In this document: one piece after another, positions 2,570-58,200 of the stretch | Position numbering within the stretch: the first letter of the stretch is position 1 | How the letters are laid out: each line of letters starts with the position of its first letter | Assembly (NCBI RefSeq): GCF_014199265.1 | Contig: NZ_JACIJG010000012.1 | Span: 62,001-126,000, forward strand | DNA from: Brucella daejeonensis | GTDB lineage: Bacteria > Pseudomonadota > Alphaproteobacteria > Rhizobiales > Rhizobiaceae | Length of the DNA: 64,000 nt | Direction: 5' to 3' | The notes under the pieces: model-generated | Told to the model about the DNA's origin: nothing | The model's database searches: none | What the model saw: the letters and a program-made list of their open reading frames with translations, nothing else | Program-made: the position numbers and the translations under genes

Positions 2570-3595
2570 TTGGAAAGTATCGAACGCGCCATAAGAAACG
2601 CATTTACCAAGGCGGATGCGCATAATCCGGCAACGCGTCAGCGAATCTATGAATCCGCCTGGGGCGCGCATGAACGCGCGCTGGCGACGAATACCGCACT
2701 GAGCGATGCGCAGAAGGAACAGCGCCGCCAGAAGCTGAAGGCCGCCATTTCCGGCATCGAACAGGAATTCAGGGTTGGCGGCAGCACGACGGATCGGCGC
2801 GAACCCTCGCTCGACACGCCGCTCCATAATGACCCGATCCTTGGCGGCACGGCTGCGGAAGCGGCGCCGGCGCTGGACACCGGCGATATTCGCGGAACAT
2901 CGCGGCAGAAGAAGCGGAGCGCGGCGGAACTCGGCTATGAGGGCGGCGTTTCGCGTAAGGACCGCAAGAAAAAGAAGCGTCACTCGCCTTTCTACAGCTA
3001 CGGCATTCCGGCCCTTGTTCTGGTGGTGGCCGGTTTCATCGGCTATTCGCTCTATAACAGTTTCATCGATATGGGCCGGGGGCCATCGGGCAATCCGCTG
3101 CGCAACGACGGAAGCCTGGCGCCCCTGAAGGAAGGCGAGGAAGCGGGTGGACTCAAATGGATCACCGTCTTCCAGCCGTCCGAAGCAACGCGCCTGTCGG
3201 TACAGGGACGCGCGACGGCTGAAATCAGACAGGAAGGCACGCGCAGCTTTGCCCGCATACAGTCTTCCGGCGCGACCGATACGGTTACTTTCGATGTCGG
3301 TGAAGGCATCTTGAACCAGCTCGAAGGAAAGAAGGCGACATTCGACATCGTGGCGCGGGCCGATGGCGGCAAGATGACCCAGATGTCCGTCAATTGCGAT
3401 TTCGGCGGTATGGGCGATTGTGGACGCCGTCGCTACGATGTGCGCGATTCCGTGAGCGATTTTCTTTTCGAGATGGATAATCCGGCAGGAAAGAAGGCAG
3501 GCCGTGCGGGCACGATCACGGTCAATTCCGATCTGGCCGGAACCGGCAAGCCGGTCAATATCTACGAAATCCGCGTCTCGACGGTGGCTGAATAA
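2570..3595 (+). CDS. Single-pass membrane protein of unknown function
   Basis: I do not recognise a named domain in this 341-residue protein. The N-terminal 60 residues form a charged helical region (FTKADAHNPATRQRIYESAW and a following KEQRRQKLKAAISGIE), followed by a basic stretch KDRKKKKRHS. One transmembrane segment lies at about residues 140-165 (YGIPALVLVVAGFIGYSLYN). The C-terminal 170 residues look like a beta-rich extracytoplasmic domain with two cysteines in NCDFGGMGDCGRRRYD. The gene would start with TTG at 2570, about a dozen bases after AAGGGA; there is no nearby in-frame ATG. It is convergent with the DNA ligase, whose stop codon follows directly. Confidence 0.7.
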   Translation: MESIERAIRNAFTKADAHNPATRQRIYESAWGAHERALATNTALSDAQKEQRRQKLKAAISGIEQEFRVGGSTTDRREPSLDTPLHNDPILGGTAAEAAPALDTGDIRGTSRQKKRSAAELGYEGGVSRKDRKKKKRHSPFYSYGIPALVLVVAGFIGYSLYNSFIDMGRGPSGNPLRNDGSLAPLKEGEEAGGLKWITVFQPSEATRLSVQGRATAEIRQEGTRSFARIQSSGATDTVTFDVGEGILNQLEGKKATFDIVARADGGKMTQMSVNCDFGGMGDCGRRRYDVRDSVSDFLFEMDNPAGKKAGRAGTITVNSDLAGTGKPVNIYEIRVSTVAE

Positions 3596-26930: not shown

Positions 26931-27139
26931 AGCGCGTCCCGAAAAGTGGGAACCGGTTTTCGGATAAGACGCGCGCCAAATATCAAAGCGCGTCCCGAAA
27001 AGTGGGAACCGGTTTTCGGATAAGACGCGCGCCAAATATCAAAGCGCGTCCCGAAAAGTGGGAACCGGTTTTCGGAATAAGACGCGCGCCGAATATCAGA
27101 ATGCGTCCCGAAAAGTATGAAACGCGCTTCAGATAGTCT
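26931..27139. repeat. Tandem array of a 56-bp nested palindrome
   Basis: Three consecutive units start at 26931, 26987 and 27043, with a diverged partial fourth from about 27100. Each unit is a nested hairpin: GCGCGTC ... GACGCGC outside and CCGAAAA ... TTTTCGG inside, spaced by GTGGGAACCGG. Units 1 and 2 appear identical; unit 3 has one extra A and a few changes. The core is the same as in the second hairpin of the elements at 20549, 33050 and 40950. Confidence 0.9.
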
Positions 27140-54436: not shown

Positions 54437-55723
54437 TTACAGCCGATCCATCAGCGCATACCATGACAGCGCGAGAAAGAGCAGCGGAGCGCGGAAGCTG
54501 CGCCCACCGGGGAAGGCGGGGATACGCAGTTCCTCGAAAAGTTTCAGCTTGTCGCGCTTGCCGGAAAGGGCTTCCGCGTAAAGTTGCCCCATATAATTGG
54601 CCAGCATCACGCCATGGCCGGAATAGCCGCCCGCCGAAATGACGCCGGGCATGACTTCGCGCACGAAGGGCTGGCGCGGCATGGTTATGCCGACCGAGCC
54701 GCCCCATGCGTGGGTGATCTCGACATTTTCCAGCGCCGGATAGATTTCAGCAATCTGGCGGCGGATATGGGTGCTGATGTCGCGGGGATTGTCCGCCGTA
54801 TAGGCTTCGCGTCCGCCAAACAGCAGCCGACCGTCCTTTGAGCGGCGGAAATAGCGCACGACGAAACGGGAATCGTCCACCGATTCACCACCTGGAATGA
54901 CTGTACTATCGTCGCCAAGCGGTGCTGTGGCCCCGATGAAGGAGCGGATCGGCATGACATGCGAGGCGCTGACGGGTTCCAGCAATCCGCCATGGGCGTT
55001 GACCGCGATAAAGGCGTGTTTTGCCGTGAGAGTGCCACGCCCGGTCTCGACCGTTATGCGACCGCTTGCCGTACTGATTCCTTTGGCTTTGGTGTTCTCG
55101 AAGAGATGCGCGCCTGCTGCCTTGGCGGCTTTGGCCATGCCGACCAGCAGTTTGAGCGGGTGAATATGGCCGGTGCCCGCATCGTAGACGCCGCCGTGAT
55201 AGCGGCTCGAACCGAGAAGTGCAGCCATCTCCGCCTGTTCGACAAACCGGATATGCGGGTAGCCAAAGCGAGTTGCCATTTGTTCGGCATGGTCGCGATA
55301 GTGTTTGAGATAGCGCGGCTTGTGCGCCGCCGAAATCTGTCCCGGAACATATTCCATGTCGATTTTGTGTTGATCTGCGAAGGCGAGGAGGGAAGCTTTG
55401 GCTTCTTCCGCGACATCGAACAGGGCTTTGGCGCGCTCGAAGCCATATTCGGCTTCAAGGTCCTCGGCCCATGTACGCTGGCCGGTGCCGAACTGGCCGC
55501 CATTGCGTCCCGATGCGCCGTCGCCAAACCGCGCGGCTTCGATCAGAACCACATCTGCGCCTTGCCTGGCCAGATGATAGGCCGCTGACAGGCCGGTATA
55601 ACCACCGCCGATGACGACGACATCCGCCTGCCGCGAGCCGTTGAGTTCGGGATAATGCGGGCGTTCGGTAACGCTTGCCTCGTACCAGGAATAGCCGGGG
55701 GAGATGGGGCTTTGATAGGGCAT
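54437..55723 (-). CDS. puuB: Gamma-glutamylputrescine oxidase-like FAD-dependent oxidoreductase
   Basis: This 428-residue DAO-family flavoenzyme has the dinucleotide site VVVIGGGYTGLSAAYHLA, EAARFGDGASGRNGGQF and the C-terminal ISAGGYSGHGVMLANYMGQL. Its N-terminus (SYWEA-like YSWYEASVTERPHYPELNGS) is characteristic of PuuB/OrdL. It would oxidise gamma-glutamylputrescine made by PuuA. It is transcribed from puuA through the inserted four-helix-bundle gene; whether transcription crosses the inverted repeat arrays is unknown. Confidence 0.87.
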   Translation of the reverse strand: MPYQSPISPGYSWYEASVTERPHYPELNGSRQADVVVIGGGYTGLSAAYHLARQGADVVLIEAARFGDGASGRNGGQFGTGQRTWAEDLEAEYGFERAKALFDVAEEAKASLLAFADQHKIDMEYVPGQISAAHKPRYLKHYRDHAEQMATRFGYPHIRFVEQAEMAALLGSSRYHGGVYDAGTGHIHPLKLLVGMAKAAKAAGAHLFENTKAKGISTASGRITVETGRGTLTAKHAFIAVNAHGGLLEPVSASHVMPIRSFIGATAPLGDDSTVIPGGESVDDSRFVVRYFRRSKDGRLLFGGREAYTADNPRDISTHIRRQIAEIYPALENVEITHAWGGSVGITMPRQPFVREVMPGVISAGGYSGHGVMLANYMGQLYAEALSGKRDKLKLFEELRIPAFPGGRSFRAPLLFLALSWYALMDRL

Positions 55724-55738
55724 GGGTGGGTCCGTTTT

Positions 55739-55770
55739 AGGGGAGTAAGGGAATAAGGGAGTAGGGGAGT
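55739..55770. repeat. Left octamer array AGGGGAGT x4 (degenerate)
   Basis: Successive octamers are AGGGGAGT, AAGGGAAT, AAGGGAGT and AGGGGAGT. Two units are diverged. It lies between the four-helix-bundle gene and puuB. Confidence 0.9.
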
Positions 55771-55774
55771 ATGT

Positions 55775-56143
55775 TTAGCTATCCGATAGCTTGCGGATAA
55801 GAAGCCTGAGCAATTTACCAATGCTTTCGCTCATAGCCATAATTGGTTCAATTGCTTCTCTTTTAATAAAGCCCAATCTTTCGGCAATCAGCATATGAGT
55901 TTCTACTTCCTTCAACGAACCCTGAGCGATACGCAGGAATTGCTGATAGGCGCCACGCGTATCGCGCCCATAGCCTTCTGCAATATTGGCCGGTATTGAG
56001 ACAGCAGCACGACGAACCTGACTTATCAGTCCAAAGGTTTCCTCCTTGGGCCAACGTTCAGTTGATTTATATATGACCGTCACTAACTCCATTGTCTGCT
56101 GCCAAACGAGAATATCCCGATAGGAATTGATTGCCATATCCAT
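55775..56143 (-). CDS. Four-helix-bundle protein (S23/23S rRNA-intervening-sequence-protein and Avd-like family)
   Basis: This 122-residue protein matches the 'four helix bundle' TIGR02436/S23-like family. Typical segments are YRDILVWQQTMELVTVIYKS, the FGLISQVRRAAVSIPANIAE region and GYGRDTRGAYQQFLRIAQGS followed by LKEVETHMLIAERLG. Members are encoded in 23S rRNA intervening sequences and, as Avd, in diversity-generating retroelements, where they bind nucleic acid. The gene sits alone between two putrescine genes to which it has no functional link. It is framed by inverted octamer arrays. Start at 56143 or two codons later. Confidence 0.9.
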   Translation of the reverse strand: MDMAINSYRDILVWQQTMELVTVIYKSTERWPKEETFGLISQVRRAAVSIPANIAEGYGRDTRGAYQQFLRIAQGSLKEVETHMLIAERLGFIKREAIEPIMAMSESIGKLLRLLIRKLSDS

Positions 56144-56160
56144 GCCCCCGCATATTTTAT

Positions 56161-56216
56161 ACTCCCCTACTCCCCTACTCCCCTACTCCCCTACTCCCCT
56201 ACTCCCCTACTCCCCT
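56161..56216. repeat. Right octamer array ACTCCCCT x7 (perfect)
   Basis: Seven identical tandem octamers, followed by AAAC and 4 bases later by the puuA stop codon region (CTA at 56220-56222). The perfection suggests recent expansion or continuing slippage. It is the inverse of the left array. Confidence 0.95.
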
Positions 56217-56219
56217 AAA

Positions 56220-57650
56220 CTAAACATTGAGCAGCAGGAACTCGCGTTCCCACGGGCTGATGACTTCCATGAAGGTTTCGAACTCGGCGCGCTTGATGGC
56301 GGCATAGGTCGTCATGAAGGAGGGGCCAAGCAGGTTGCGCAGTTCCGTGTCGCTCTCGAACAGTTCCACTGCGTCGATCAGGCCACGGGGAAGCTCCACT
56401 TCCTTGGTGTTGACGCTTGTGGTTGCCGGCTGTTCCGCGCCGGTCTTGTTGACAAGGCCGATCAATCCGCAGGCGAGCGACGCCGCCAGCGCCAGATAGG
56501 GATTGGCGTCCGAAGACGGAATGCGGTTTTCCACGCGGCGCGCATTGGGGTCGGAGCGCGGAACGCGGAACGCGGTGGTGCGGTTGTCGTAGCCCCATTT
56601 GACATTGACCGGCGCGGAGGCGCTCGGCGTCAGGCGGCGATAGGAATTCACGTAGGGAGCGAACATCACCAGCGCGTTGGGCACATGACGCTGCATACCG
56701 CCGATGAAGTGGCGGAACGCCTCGCTCTCGCTGCCGTCCTCATTGGTGAAGATGTTGCGGCCGGTCTTCTTGTCGATGATCGACTGATGGATATGCATGG
56801 CCGATCCGGGTTGACCCTGAATGGGCTTGGCCATGAAGGTAGCATACATATCGTGCTTGAGCGCTGCCTCGCGGATCGTGCGCTTGAACATGAAGACCTG
56901 ATCGGCAAGCTCGACGGGATCGCCGTGGCGCAGGTTGATTTCAAGCTGGCCCGCGCCTTCCTCGTGGATCAGCGTGTCGATCTCCAGCCCCTGTCCCTCG
57001 GAGAAATGGTAGATATCGTCGATCAGTTCGTCGAATTCGTTGACGCCGGCGATCGAATAGCCCTGTCCGCCGCCGATGGCGCGCCCCGAACGGCCAACCG
57101 GCGGGGTCAGCGGATAGTCGGGGTCCGGGTTCTTTCGCACCAGATAGAATTCGATTTCCGGCGCCACGACCGGTTTCAGGCCGCGCTTGCTATAGGCGGC
57201 GATAACGTTGCGCAGCACGTTGCGCGGGGTGAATTCGACCGCGCGCCCGTCCTGATAGACGAGATCGCAGATTACCTGCGCCGTCGGGTCGGATTCCCAT
57301 GGTACGGCGGAGAGGGTCGAAAGGTCCGGCAGAAGCTTCAGGTCGCCATCGTCTTCCGGGTATTGGAACCCGTTGCCGTCTTCCGGGTAGTCGCCGGAAA
57401 TCGTCGTCATGAAAACCGCCGAAGGCAGGGCCAGCGACGTGTTGGAGGTGAATTTCTTCGACGGCATCATCTTGCCGCGCGCAACGCCAGCCTGATCGGG
57501 CGTGATGCATTCGATATCTTCGATGTCGCGCCAGGCGAGCCATTCCGTCGCCTGTTTCCAGTTTTTCACACCGCGAAGGGATTTGACATAAGTAGGCGTA
57601 CGGCGACGCGGTGCGCGCGTGACCTTCTTTTCCGTCGTATCAGCAGACAT
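56220..57650 (-). CDS. puuA: Gamma-glutamylputrescine synthetase (glutamine synthetase family)
   Basis: This 476-residue glutamine synthetase-fold ligase has VAPEIEFYLVRKNPDPDYPL, the EEGAGQLEINLRHGDPVELA glutamate-site motif, MAKPIQGQPGSAMHIHQSI, and PSASAPVNVKWGYDNRTTAF with RVPRSDPNARRVENRIPSSD. It is of the PuuA/GlnA3-4 type rather than the nitrogen-assimilating GlnA, since it lacks the adenylylation-site region. It couples putrescine to glutamate using ATP. Neighbours puuB and potFG support this substrate. Confidence 0.88.
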   Translation of the reverse strand: MSADTTEKKVTRAPRRRTPTYVKSLRGVKNWKQATEWLAWRDIEDIECITPDQAGVARGKMMPSKKFTSNTSLALPSAVFMTTISGDYPEDGNGFQYPEDDGDLKLLPDLSTLSAVPWESDPTAQVICDLVYQDGRAVEFTPRNVLRNVIAAYSKRGLKPVVAPEIEFYLVRKNPDPDYPLTPPVGRSGRAIGGGQGYSIAGVNEFDELIDDIYHFSEGQGLEIDTLIHEEGAGQLEINLRHGDPVELADQVFMFKRTIREAALKHDMYATFMAKPIQGQPGSAMHIHQSIIDKKTGRNIFTNEDGSESEAFRHFIGGMQRHVPNALVMFAPYVNSYRRLTPSASAPVNVKWGYDNRTTAFRVPRSDPNARRVENRIPSSDANPYLALAASLACGLIGLVNKTGAEQPATTSVNTKEVELPRGLIDAVELFESDTELRNLLGPSFMTTYAAIKRAEFETFMEVISPWEREFLLLNV

Positions 57651-57862: not shown

Positions 57863-58021
57863 TCAAGTGCGTTTCATCGATTTTCGTCGGCGATGACCCG
57901 GATGGACATTCTGTCGCTGCCCCCGCGCTGCCGCAGGCACGCAAAAGACAAGACCGCGTTGCCGAAGGCACGCAAAGGAGAAGACCATGGCGGCGAAGGC
58001 GAGGGTGACGAGCGCCGTCAT
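57863..58021 (-). CDS. Small ORF, coupled (ATGA) copy 2 in the aceA operon
   Basis: A 52-codon frame starts MTALVTLAFAAMVFSFACLR, a possible membrane segment, and ends with a basic tail (GHRRRKSMKRT). Its ATG overlaps the stop of the previous small frame as ATGA. It lies between the tandem duplication and the operon terminator. It was probably the original second small gene before the duplication. Translation is unproven. Confidence 0.35.
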   Translation of the reverse strand: MTALVTLAFAAMVFSFACLRQRGLVFCVPAAARGQRQNVHPGHRRRKSMKRT

Positions 58022-58200
58022 GGGTTGTGCGTGACGATGACGGGGATCATCAGATCGCCCCAGTTGCCTTCGCCGTTCCCGCGTTGCCGAAGGCACGCAA
58101 AGGAGAAGACCATGGCGGCGAAGGCGAGGGTGACGAGCGCCGTCATGGGTTGTGCGTGACGATGACGGGGATCATCAGATCGCCCCAGTTGCCTTCGCCG
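57954..58200. repeat. 125-bp tandem duplication across a gene junction
   Basis: Bases 57954-58075 are repeated without a mismatch seen at 58079-58200 (122 bases, period 125). The copy includes the last codons of the 78-residue gene (EGNWGDLMIPVIVTHNP), the ATGA overlap and the first 22 codons of the next frame. A shorter, diverged third copy of its left edge (GCCGCAGGCACGCAAAAGAC) lies at 57930-57949. Confidence 0.93.
58018..58146 (-). CDS. Small chimeric ORF created by the tandem duplication
   Basis: A 42-codon frame starts with the same MTALVTLAFAAM as the downstream frame and ends with the same EGNWGDLMIPVIVTHNP as the upstream gene. It overlaps both neighbours by ATGA. It is therefore a fusion of the two genes' parts made by the 125-bp duplication, whose length of 125 is not a multiple of three but keeps both overlaps intact. 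Whether it is translated is unknown. Confidence 0.4.
   Translation of the reverse strand: MTALVTLAFAAMVFSFACLRQRGNGEGNWGDLMIPVIVTHNP

Follow-up and report, generated by a model that had tools for sequence, protein, structure and literature searches.

Introduction

In RAYT/REPIN pairs, and in pairs of an insertion sequence (IS) with its miniature inverted-repeat transposable elements (MITEs), an autonomous gene-bearing copy is accompanied by gene-less inverted derivatives that depend on its gene. We have studied a small element of comparable layout in a stretch of 64,000 nucleotides of the Brucella daejeonensis genome (contig NZ_JACIJG010000012.1; this whole stretch is referred to as the window): a single gene for a four-helix-bundle protein, set between two mutually inverse tandem arrays of an octamer. 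Like the RAYT/REPIN and IS/MITE pairs, the element has a gene-bearing copy, gene-less inverted derivatives, and an apparent dependence of the latter on the gene; unlike them it has no transposase or HUH gene, its ends are tandem arrays, and no target-site duplication was found.

Other described systems are close to the element in different respects. Its protein family is that of S23p from the intervening sequences (IVSs) of 23S rRNA, which have been called selfish or possibly mobile, and whose origin is unclear (PMC4990558). In both cases one small gene lies between inverted arms that can pair in RNA; unlike the rRNA insertions, however, the element studied here stands between protein genes, and its unit recurs in arrays scattered over the genome. 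Its arms are tandem arrays of 7-9-mers, the arms of rRNA-located copies lying outside this comparison. Avd of diversity-generating retroelements (DGRs) shares with the protein a related four-helix-bundle fold. As to the arrays, there is a likeness to the heptamers of Xanthomonas and Nostoc and to the TAACTGA repeats, both of them tandem heptamers that are dispersed, lie mostly between genes and favour four units (PMC4692102, PMC4679880). Two Xanthomonas genomes have 70 and 75 inverted pairs of the former, which are described as generally not associated with mobile elements; they differ from the arrays studied here in that the bundle gene is not named in the available text of that publication, on whose description alone the comparison is based (PMC4692102). 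For the TAACTGA repeats, a repeat-binding protein, not identified there, was considered as a possible mobile element (PMC4679880). In our data ATCAGTT, the unit beside the bundle genes of L217, L218 and genomes G441 and G443, is a rotation of the reverse complement of TAACTGA.

Octamer arrays are also familiar from Brucella as variable-number tandem repeats (VNTRs), with AGGGCAGT as the unit of Bruce04, Bruce09 and Bruce30, and TAAGGGAG as that of Bruce16 (PMC11434918); Bruce04, 09 and 30 have been equated with HOOF-Print loci (PMC1513380), which are described in PMC1183211. These loci, the HOOF-Print set and panel 2 of multiple-locus VNTR analysis (MLVA), have the same octamers as the element, classical Brucella genomes being outside our comparison; unlike the element they are known as typing markers, with no link to an element or to the bundle protein in the portions of these sources available to us. 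The palindromic intergenic repeats Bru-RS1 and Bru-RS2 of Brucella (103-106 bp) resemble the gene-less pairs in size (PMC10800456, PMC2267715, PMC2266754). No description of a link between bundle gene and repeat arrays was recognized in the literature searched, most subscription journals and bioRxiv being outside it. With such a link, a family of unknown function with solved structures gains a predicted target, legible in the sequence next to each of its genes; one possible source is offered for a number of unexplained repeat families of bacteria, a widely used Brucella typing marker among them; and the role of the S23 protein in IVSs, as well as the way in which those spread, is made directly testable.

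Results

Inverted arrays in the protein family

A preliminary description of the window, made from its letters alone, had proposed scanning the flanks of other genes of the family for inverted short-tandem arrays, whose absence would have counted against any bond between gene and repeats; a strong enrichment was found instead. The relatives were collected from four sources: the best 80 of 575 from a search of genome contigs, a set that leans to close kin; 299 evenly drawn Pseudomonadota genomes, of which 50 have the gene, together with 20 further stretches, mostly full-length matches; 14 genomes reached via named loci; and 117 genomes from the cyanobacterial phylum, the gene being present in 56. 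After turning and de-duplication, 188 loci yielded 171 distinct genes. By a motif-free measure (best self-match at period 6-9), an array is present on at least one side in 157 of the 171 genes and on both sides in 118, while only 6.2% of 580 single windows from the same loci reach the array score. At a stricter score there are 139 genes with an array on either side and 94 with arrays on both, against 2.1% of control windows. Genes with arrays on both sides, on either side, and in total, number respectively 67, 77 and 80 among the close relatives; 20, 40 and 48 in the Pseudomonadota; 10, 14 and 14 in the named-locus genomes; 21, 26 and 29 in the cyanobacterial phylum.

The comparison of units is restricted to the 118 genes with both arms. 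The period is the same on the two arms in 116 of them, and the mean identity of the upstream unit to the reverse complement of the downstream unit is 0.884 (at least 0.85 in 101 genes); the corresponding values are 0.417 in direct orientation and 0.332 when arms are permuted between loci, with 0.431 as the highest of 1000 permutations. As many as 53 different units occur, mostly of 7 or 8 nt; read toward the gene, the upstream arm has more G than C in 108 cases and less in 4. The median array length is 4.4 units, 4-5 being the commonest (275 arrays). Inverted matched arrays are a property of the protein family, and not of one locus only.

The unit goes with the element and with the protein. 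In genomes of which several elements could be scored, the arms within one element agree (0.858, n = 19) and those of separate elements do not (0.308, n = 26): the unit belongs to the element rather than to the genome. Proteins at least 80% identical have the same unit in 97% of 301 pairs, and proteins 55-65% identical in 20% of 1272 pairs, in a comparison that covers 164 of the 171 proteins, 115 with units, and from which kinship was not removed. The unit follows the protein.

The element in the window

The features of the locus are the following.

55735..56219, minus strand: whole element (array, bundle gene, inverted array), about 485 bp with approximate outer limits; found in those members of the genus that have the gene, and missing where gene-less members have a compact puuA-puuB junction
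55739..55770, plus strand: gene-downstream inverted array of 4 units, 2 of them diverged, read AGGGGAGT-AAGGGAAT-AAGGGAGT-AGGGGAGT
55763..55776, plus strand: inner border AGGGGAGTATGTTT, judged by eye to be common to many gene-less pairs of the genus
55775..56143, minus strand: four-helix-bundle gene, 122 aa, PF05635/TIGR02436 by profile matches; nearest solved relative 2gsc (XCC0516)
56161..56216, minus strand: gene-upstream array of 7 perfect units, ACTCCCCT on the forward strand and AGGGGAGT on the minus strand; spanned by Bruce16 in relatives
54437..55723, minus strand: puuB-like DAO-type FAD oxidoreductase (profile match), host gene downstream of the element
56220..57650, minus strand: puuA-like glutamine-synthetase-type gene (profile match), host gene upstream of the element

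The two arrays are as the preliminary description had them, mutually inverse and with agreeing outer (GTTTTAGGGG / CCCCTAAAC) and inner (GGGGAGTAT) borders. The octamer AGGGGAGT occurs 9 times in the window, always inside the two arrays; in 100 shuffled windows its mean count is 0.79 and its maximum 4. The bundle gene is the sole gene recognized within the element, which contains no transposase or recombinase; no terminator-like site was found, and promoter-like matches number 3 against 0.9 expected. The gene does lie between the two neighbours that had been called puuA and puuB. As regards their names, the gamma-glutamylputrescine synthetase model NF045547 gives 223 bits with the upstream neighbour, the cut-off being 650, and the neighbours are therefore named puuA-like and puuB-like, and no more than that.

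The protein matches both PF05635 (E = 3.2e-36; 124.2 bits, cut-off 33.8) and TIGR02436 (E = 3.5e-35; 120.5 bits, cut-off 24), and is the only TIGR02436 match in the genome of the window. Of the label S23/Avd-type under which it had been introduced, the first half is borne out by these scores and the second is weak: the Avd model NF033474 gives 19.9 bits, with a cut-off of 80. A partner enzyme for the protein, also suggested at that stage, found no support; in particular a reverse transcriptase is not required, as RVT_1 has no match in the genome of the window, is absent in 4 of 13 gene-bearing members of the genus, and is present in 10 of 22 gene-less ones. The nearest solved relative, with E = 2.1e-23, is XCC0516 of Xanthomonas (2gsc), a homopentamer (PMC4990558). 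The median dN/dS for the window gene and ten relatives is 0.057 (range 0.02-0.17; 38 usable of 55 pairs), and the protein is under purifying selection and in use. In a conservation profile of 121 of 167 sequences, a set made before the turning and de-duplication of loci, almost no variation is seen in a block around PANIAEGYGR and in a GSL.E.ET stretch further along.

Arrays elsewhere in the genome

A cassette that spreads repeats in trans should leave arrays of its unit at other sites of the genomes that have the gene, and it is there that they are found. In the genus, arrays of three AGGGSAGT units are present in 12 of the 13 genomes that have the gene and in 2 of the 22 that lack it (p = 1.3e-6); among the matches listed, at least 10 of the 13 gene-bearing members have arrays away from the gene, the orphan arrays of G030 and G033 being left out of this count. 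In a tree built from two gene fragments, G019, G034 and G002, which lack the gene, are nested among genomes that have it; none of the three holds a three-unit array, against 6, 11, 21 and 34 matches in their gene-bearing neighbours G010, G018, G033 and G008. Of the 299 Pseudomonadota genomes, 50 have the gene; among the 11 with AGGCAGT arrays it is present in 10 (p = 7e-8). The pattern ATCAGTW, taken from the gene flanks of G441 and G443, has 479 and 326 overlapping matches in these two genomes; elsewhere among the 117 genomes of the cyanobacterial phylum the next highest count is 47, and 103 genomes have none. As a control, the backward-read pattern is clean for AGGGSAGT and AGGCAGT (one genome, 15 matches). 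Backward ATCAGTW has matches in 17 of 117 genomes, up to 579, and 16 of the 17 have the gene (p = 2.7e-5); it was rejected as a null control, since it seems itself to be a further unit of this kind (compare L183). Overall, a genome that has the gene tends to have arrays of the gene's unit elsewhere as well, and most gene-less genomes do not.

Many of these arrays are themselves inverted pairs. The second array of the window's genome (L010, ~2979-3068) is an inverted pair around ~30 bp, with no gene. An inverse partner lies within 150 bp of the orphan array in 9 of 12 cases scored in the genus (out of 13, L134 not being scorable) and in 9 of 13 in Mesorhizobium; the counts for the backward unit, used as a control, are 0 in the genus, 1 in Mesorhizobium and 1 elsewhere. 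Gene-less derivatives with the same ends as the gene-bearing copy, as expected of MITE-like sequences, are thus present. Four loci (L136, L137, L139, L144) appear by eye to be nested gene-less pairs, in which an outer AGGGCAGT-type array is succeeded further in by one of AGGGGAGT type and by a short hairpin; they look as though one kind of unit had inserted into, or replaced, the other.

Filled and empty sites

In all members of the genus that have it (13 of 13), the bundle gene separates the puuA-like gene from the puuB-like one. In 14 of the 15 gene-less members that were read, the junction is compact, with stop and start codon 10 bp apart; the fifteenth (G028) has an array fragment at a contig end, and the 22 gene-less members are completed by two unresolved junctions and five not fetched. 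The comparison of this junction in relatives thus gives a clean difference between filled and empty sites, and the gene is not an invariable part of the locus. In Phyllobacterium, Paramesorhizobium and many Mesorhizobium the gene is at the same puuA-puuB-like junction; other Mesorhizobium elements precede mmsB-like genes, and those of Bosea, Chelatococcus and others lie between nuoC-like and nuoD-like genes (all these names by eye).

Discussion

These results can be interpreted in terms of a small self-contained repeat-spreading element that consists of one gene and its own cognate terminal arrays, and whose protein would recognize its own unit and maintain and spread the arrays with the help of host enzymes. 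We consider this interpretation probable, with some reserve. The bundle protein would presumably be a pentameric ring like XCC0516, recognizing one 7-9-nt unit in single-stranded nucleic acid, either RNA or DNA exposed at replication, perhaps with one unit per protomer; the pentamer and the commonest array length of 4-5 units are matching numbers, which is suggestive only. The protein may protect arrays of its unit and lengthen them via host replication and repair, and, acting in trans, may allow gene-less inverted pairs (MITE-like derivatives) and single arrays to become established elsewhere in the genome via host enzymes. The mirrored arms would fold back so that one arm templates or corrects the other; such templating would account for a unit that is common to both arms also where a further element of that genome has a different one.

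Several observations are at odds with this interpretation, or limit it. By the period measure 14 of the 171 genes have no array, and in 9 of the 118 two-armed genes the arms are discordant (identity below 0.7). The association between gene and arrays has exceptions: G029 has the gene and no AGGGSAGT array, its arms being made of AAGGGAGT; G026 and G028 have arrays, and no gene was found in them; further exceptions are G324 for AGGCAGT, and G368, G433 and G462 for ATCAGTW. By presence alone, which is a weak test, ATCAGTW goes with the gene in 11 of 14 holders against 45 of 103 other genomes (p = 0.02). With the exception of the three nested genomes, the association tests treat related genomes as independent. 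Outside Brucella and Mesorhizobium, 0 of 3 orphan arrays have an inverse partner, and in six stretches viewed in ATCAGTW genomes single arrays outnumber pairs. Neither movement nor binding nor a target-site duplication was seen in this analysis; between filled and empty junctions no clear duplication can be recognized, as the ends merge with TTAG/TTAA and the flanks have diverged. Finally, the gene-bearing copy keeps to one site throughout the genus and into Phyllobacterium and Mesorhizobium, and therefore appears to be mostly inherited, or exchanged together with its flanks, rather than often hopping, so that it is the arrays and the gene-less pairs that come and go faster. The original idea of a small mobile or repeat-spreading cassette is accordingly retained as far as spreading is concerned, with arrays throughout the family, a filled/empty junction and arrays elsewhere in genomes with the gene; mobility of the gene-bearing copy, found at the same junction in all 13 members, is the part that is not sustained.

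A more far-reaching version, which we put forward tentatively and would not at present expect to prevail, is that the element, free of any recombinase, would be a repeat-writing system. Its ring protein would dictate which short tandem repeat is formed, and would make cognate 7-9-mer arrays and spread them through the genome; as the protein diverged, its specificity would drift. The products would include the Brucella octamer VNTRs, the TAACTGA repeats and possibly the G-quadruplex (G4)-forming heptamers of Xanthomonas and Nostoc. If it is true that the protein sets the repeat, DNA would here be spread with no known transposase involved, and a code would link a small ring protein to a unit of 7-9 letters.

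Alternatively, the protein could be an RNA- or DNA-binding regulator, with the adjoining arrays as autoregulatory sites and the dispersed ones as its regulon; arrays would then be kept by selection on regulation, and nothing would move. We regard this as rather unlikely. It agrees with the occurrence of arrays together with the gene, with the frequency of single arrays in ATCAGTW genomes, and with several orphan positions that, by eye, are common to different species; a regulatory network has also been suggested for the TAACTGA repeats (PMC4679880). However, the site of the window genome's own orphan holds a pair in 12 of 30 members of the genus read and nothing in 13 of 30, and the neighbours of orphan arrays look functionally unrelated (by eye). 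Moreover, autoregulation needs neither mirrored arms on both sides of the gene nor gene-less inverted pairs, and the unit changes on both arms together.

Distinctly unlikely, in our opinion, is a passenger of the IVS kind, in which the arms pair in the transcript, RNase III excises the element from the host message and so renders it harmless between genes or inside them, the protein assists RNA processing, and the other arrays are decayed copies. The family is indeed that of S23p in 23S rRNA intervening sequences (PMC4990558), and the capacity of the inverted arrays to pair in RNA, anticipated in the preliminary description, is evident: as in an IVS, the arms can close around the S23p-like frame, here with an uninterrupted stem of 36 bp (z = -6.2, with 0 of 100 shuffles as good). 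This model does not account, however, for arms that are tandem arrays, for units that differ between elements of the same genome, or for hundreds of dispersed arrays. A location in rRNA was rejected for the element, which lies between two protein genes, and an Rfam scan of 20 relatives gave no rRNA match.

Chance proximity of ordinary microsatellites or G-quadruplex repeats to the gene can be practically dismissed: some genomes do abound in G-rich heptamers, which form G4 in vitro (PMC4692102), but control windows seldom reach the array score, the match of the arms is far beyond permutation, and units without a G-run are frequent (for example ATCAGTT, GTGAATA and AAGTTACT), which also eliminates the G-quadruplex as a common property; in view of the enrichment and of the arm match, chance is excluded at the level of the family, and only single loci could still be explained by it.

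Correspondence with Brucella typing loci

The typing marker Bruce16 can be placed on the element: it maps onto the gene-upstream array (56161-56216) in relatives. The forward primer falls at the end of the puuA-like gene (window 56220-56260) and the reverse primer in the bundle gene; they match the window at 18 of 22 positions each, in order around the array, and in 9 sequences the distance spanned is 167-199 bp. Away from this site, the first 55 kb of the window offer no match better than 15 of 22, and the reverse primer reaches only 13 of 22 in a Mesorhizobium relative (L025). By eye, the Bruce09 and Bruce30 primers resemble gene-less pairs.

Other observations

Among the relatives, a gammaproteobacterial-looking one (L330) has GGGATTC on both arms, a unit near, and not identical to, the GGGAATC of Xanthomonas. 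In 6 of the 171 (L069, L074, L081, L086, L178, L206) the bundle gene lies within a longer open frame, which runs through the element in the +2 frame; five of these host frames match Eco57I modification methylases (PF07669), with three insertion points, and the sixth is DUF1156. L074, L081 and L086, from three phyla, have a common insertion point; the arms of L081 and L206 are weak. A fixed direction relative to the host operon was considered and set aside: both neighbours are co-directional in 68 of the 163 loci for which the two could be called, by a crude calling with minus-strand loci unturned, and we make no claim from it. In the window itself, a 125-bp unit is repeated twice with 100% identity at 57954-58200, beyond the puuA-like gene, and a 56-bp unit is repeated 3.3 times with 96% matches at 26931-27116.
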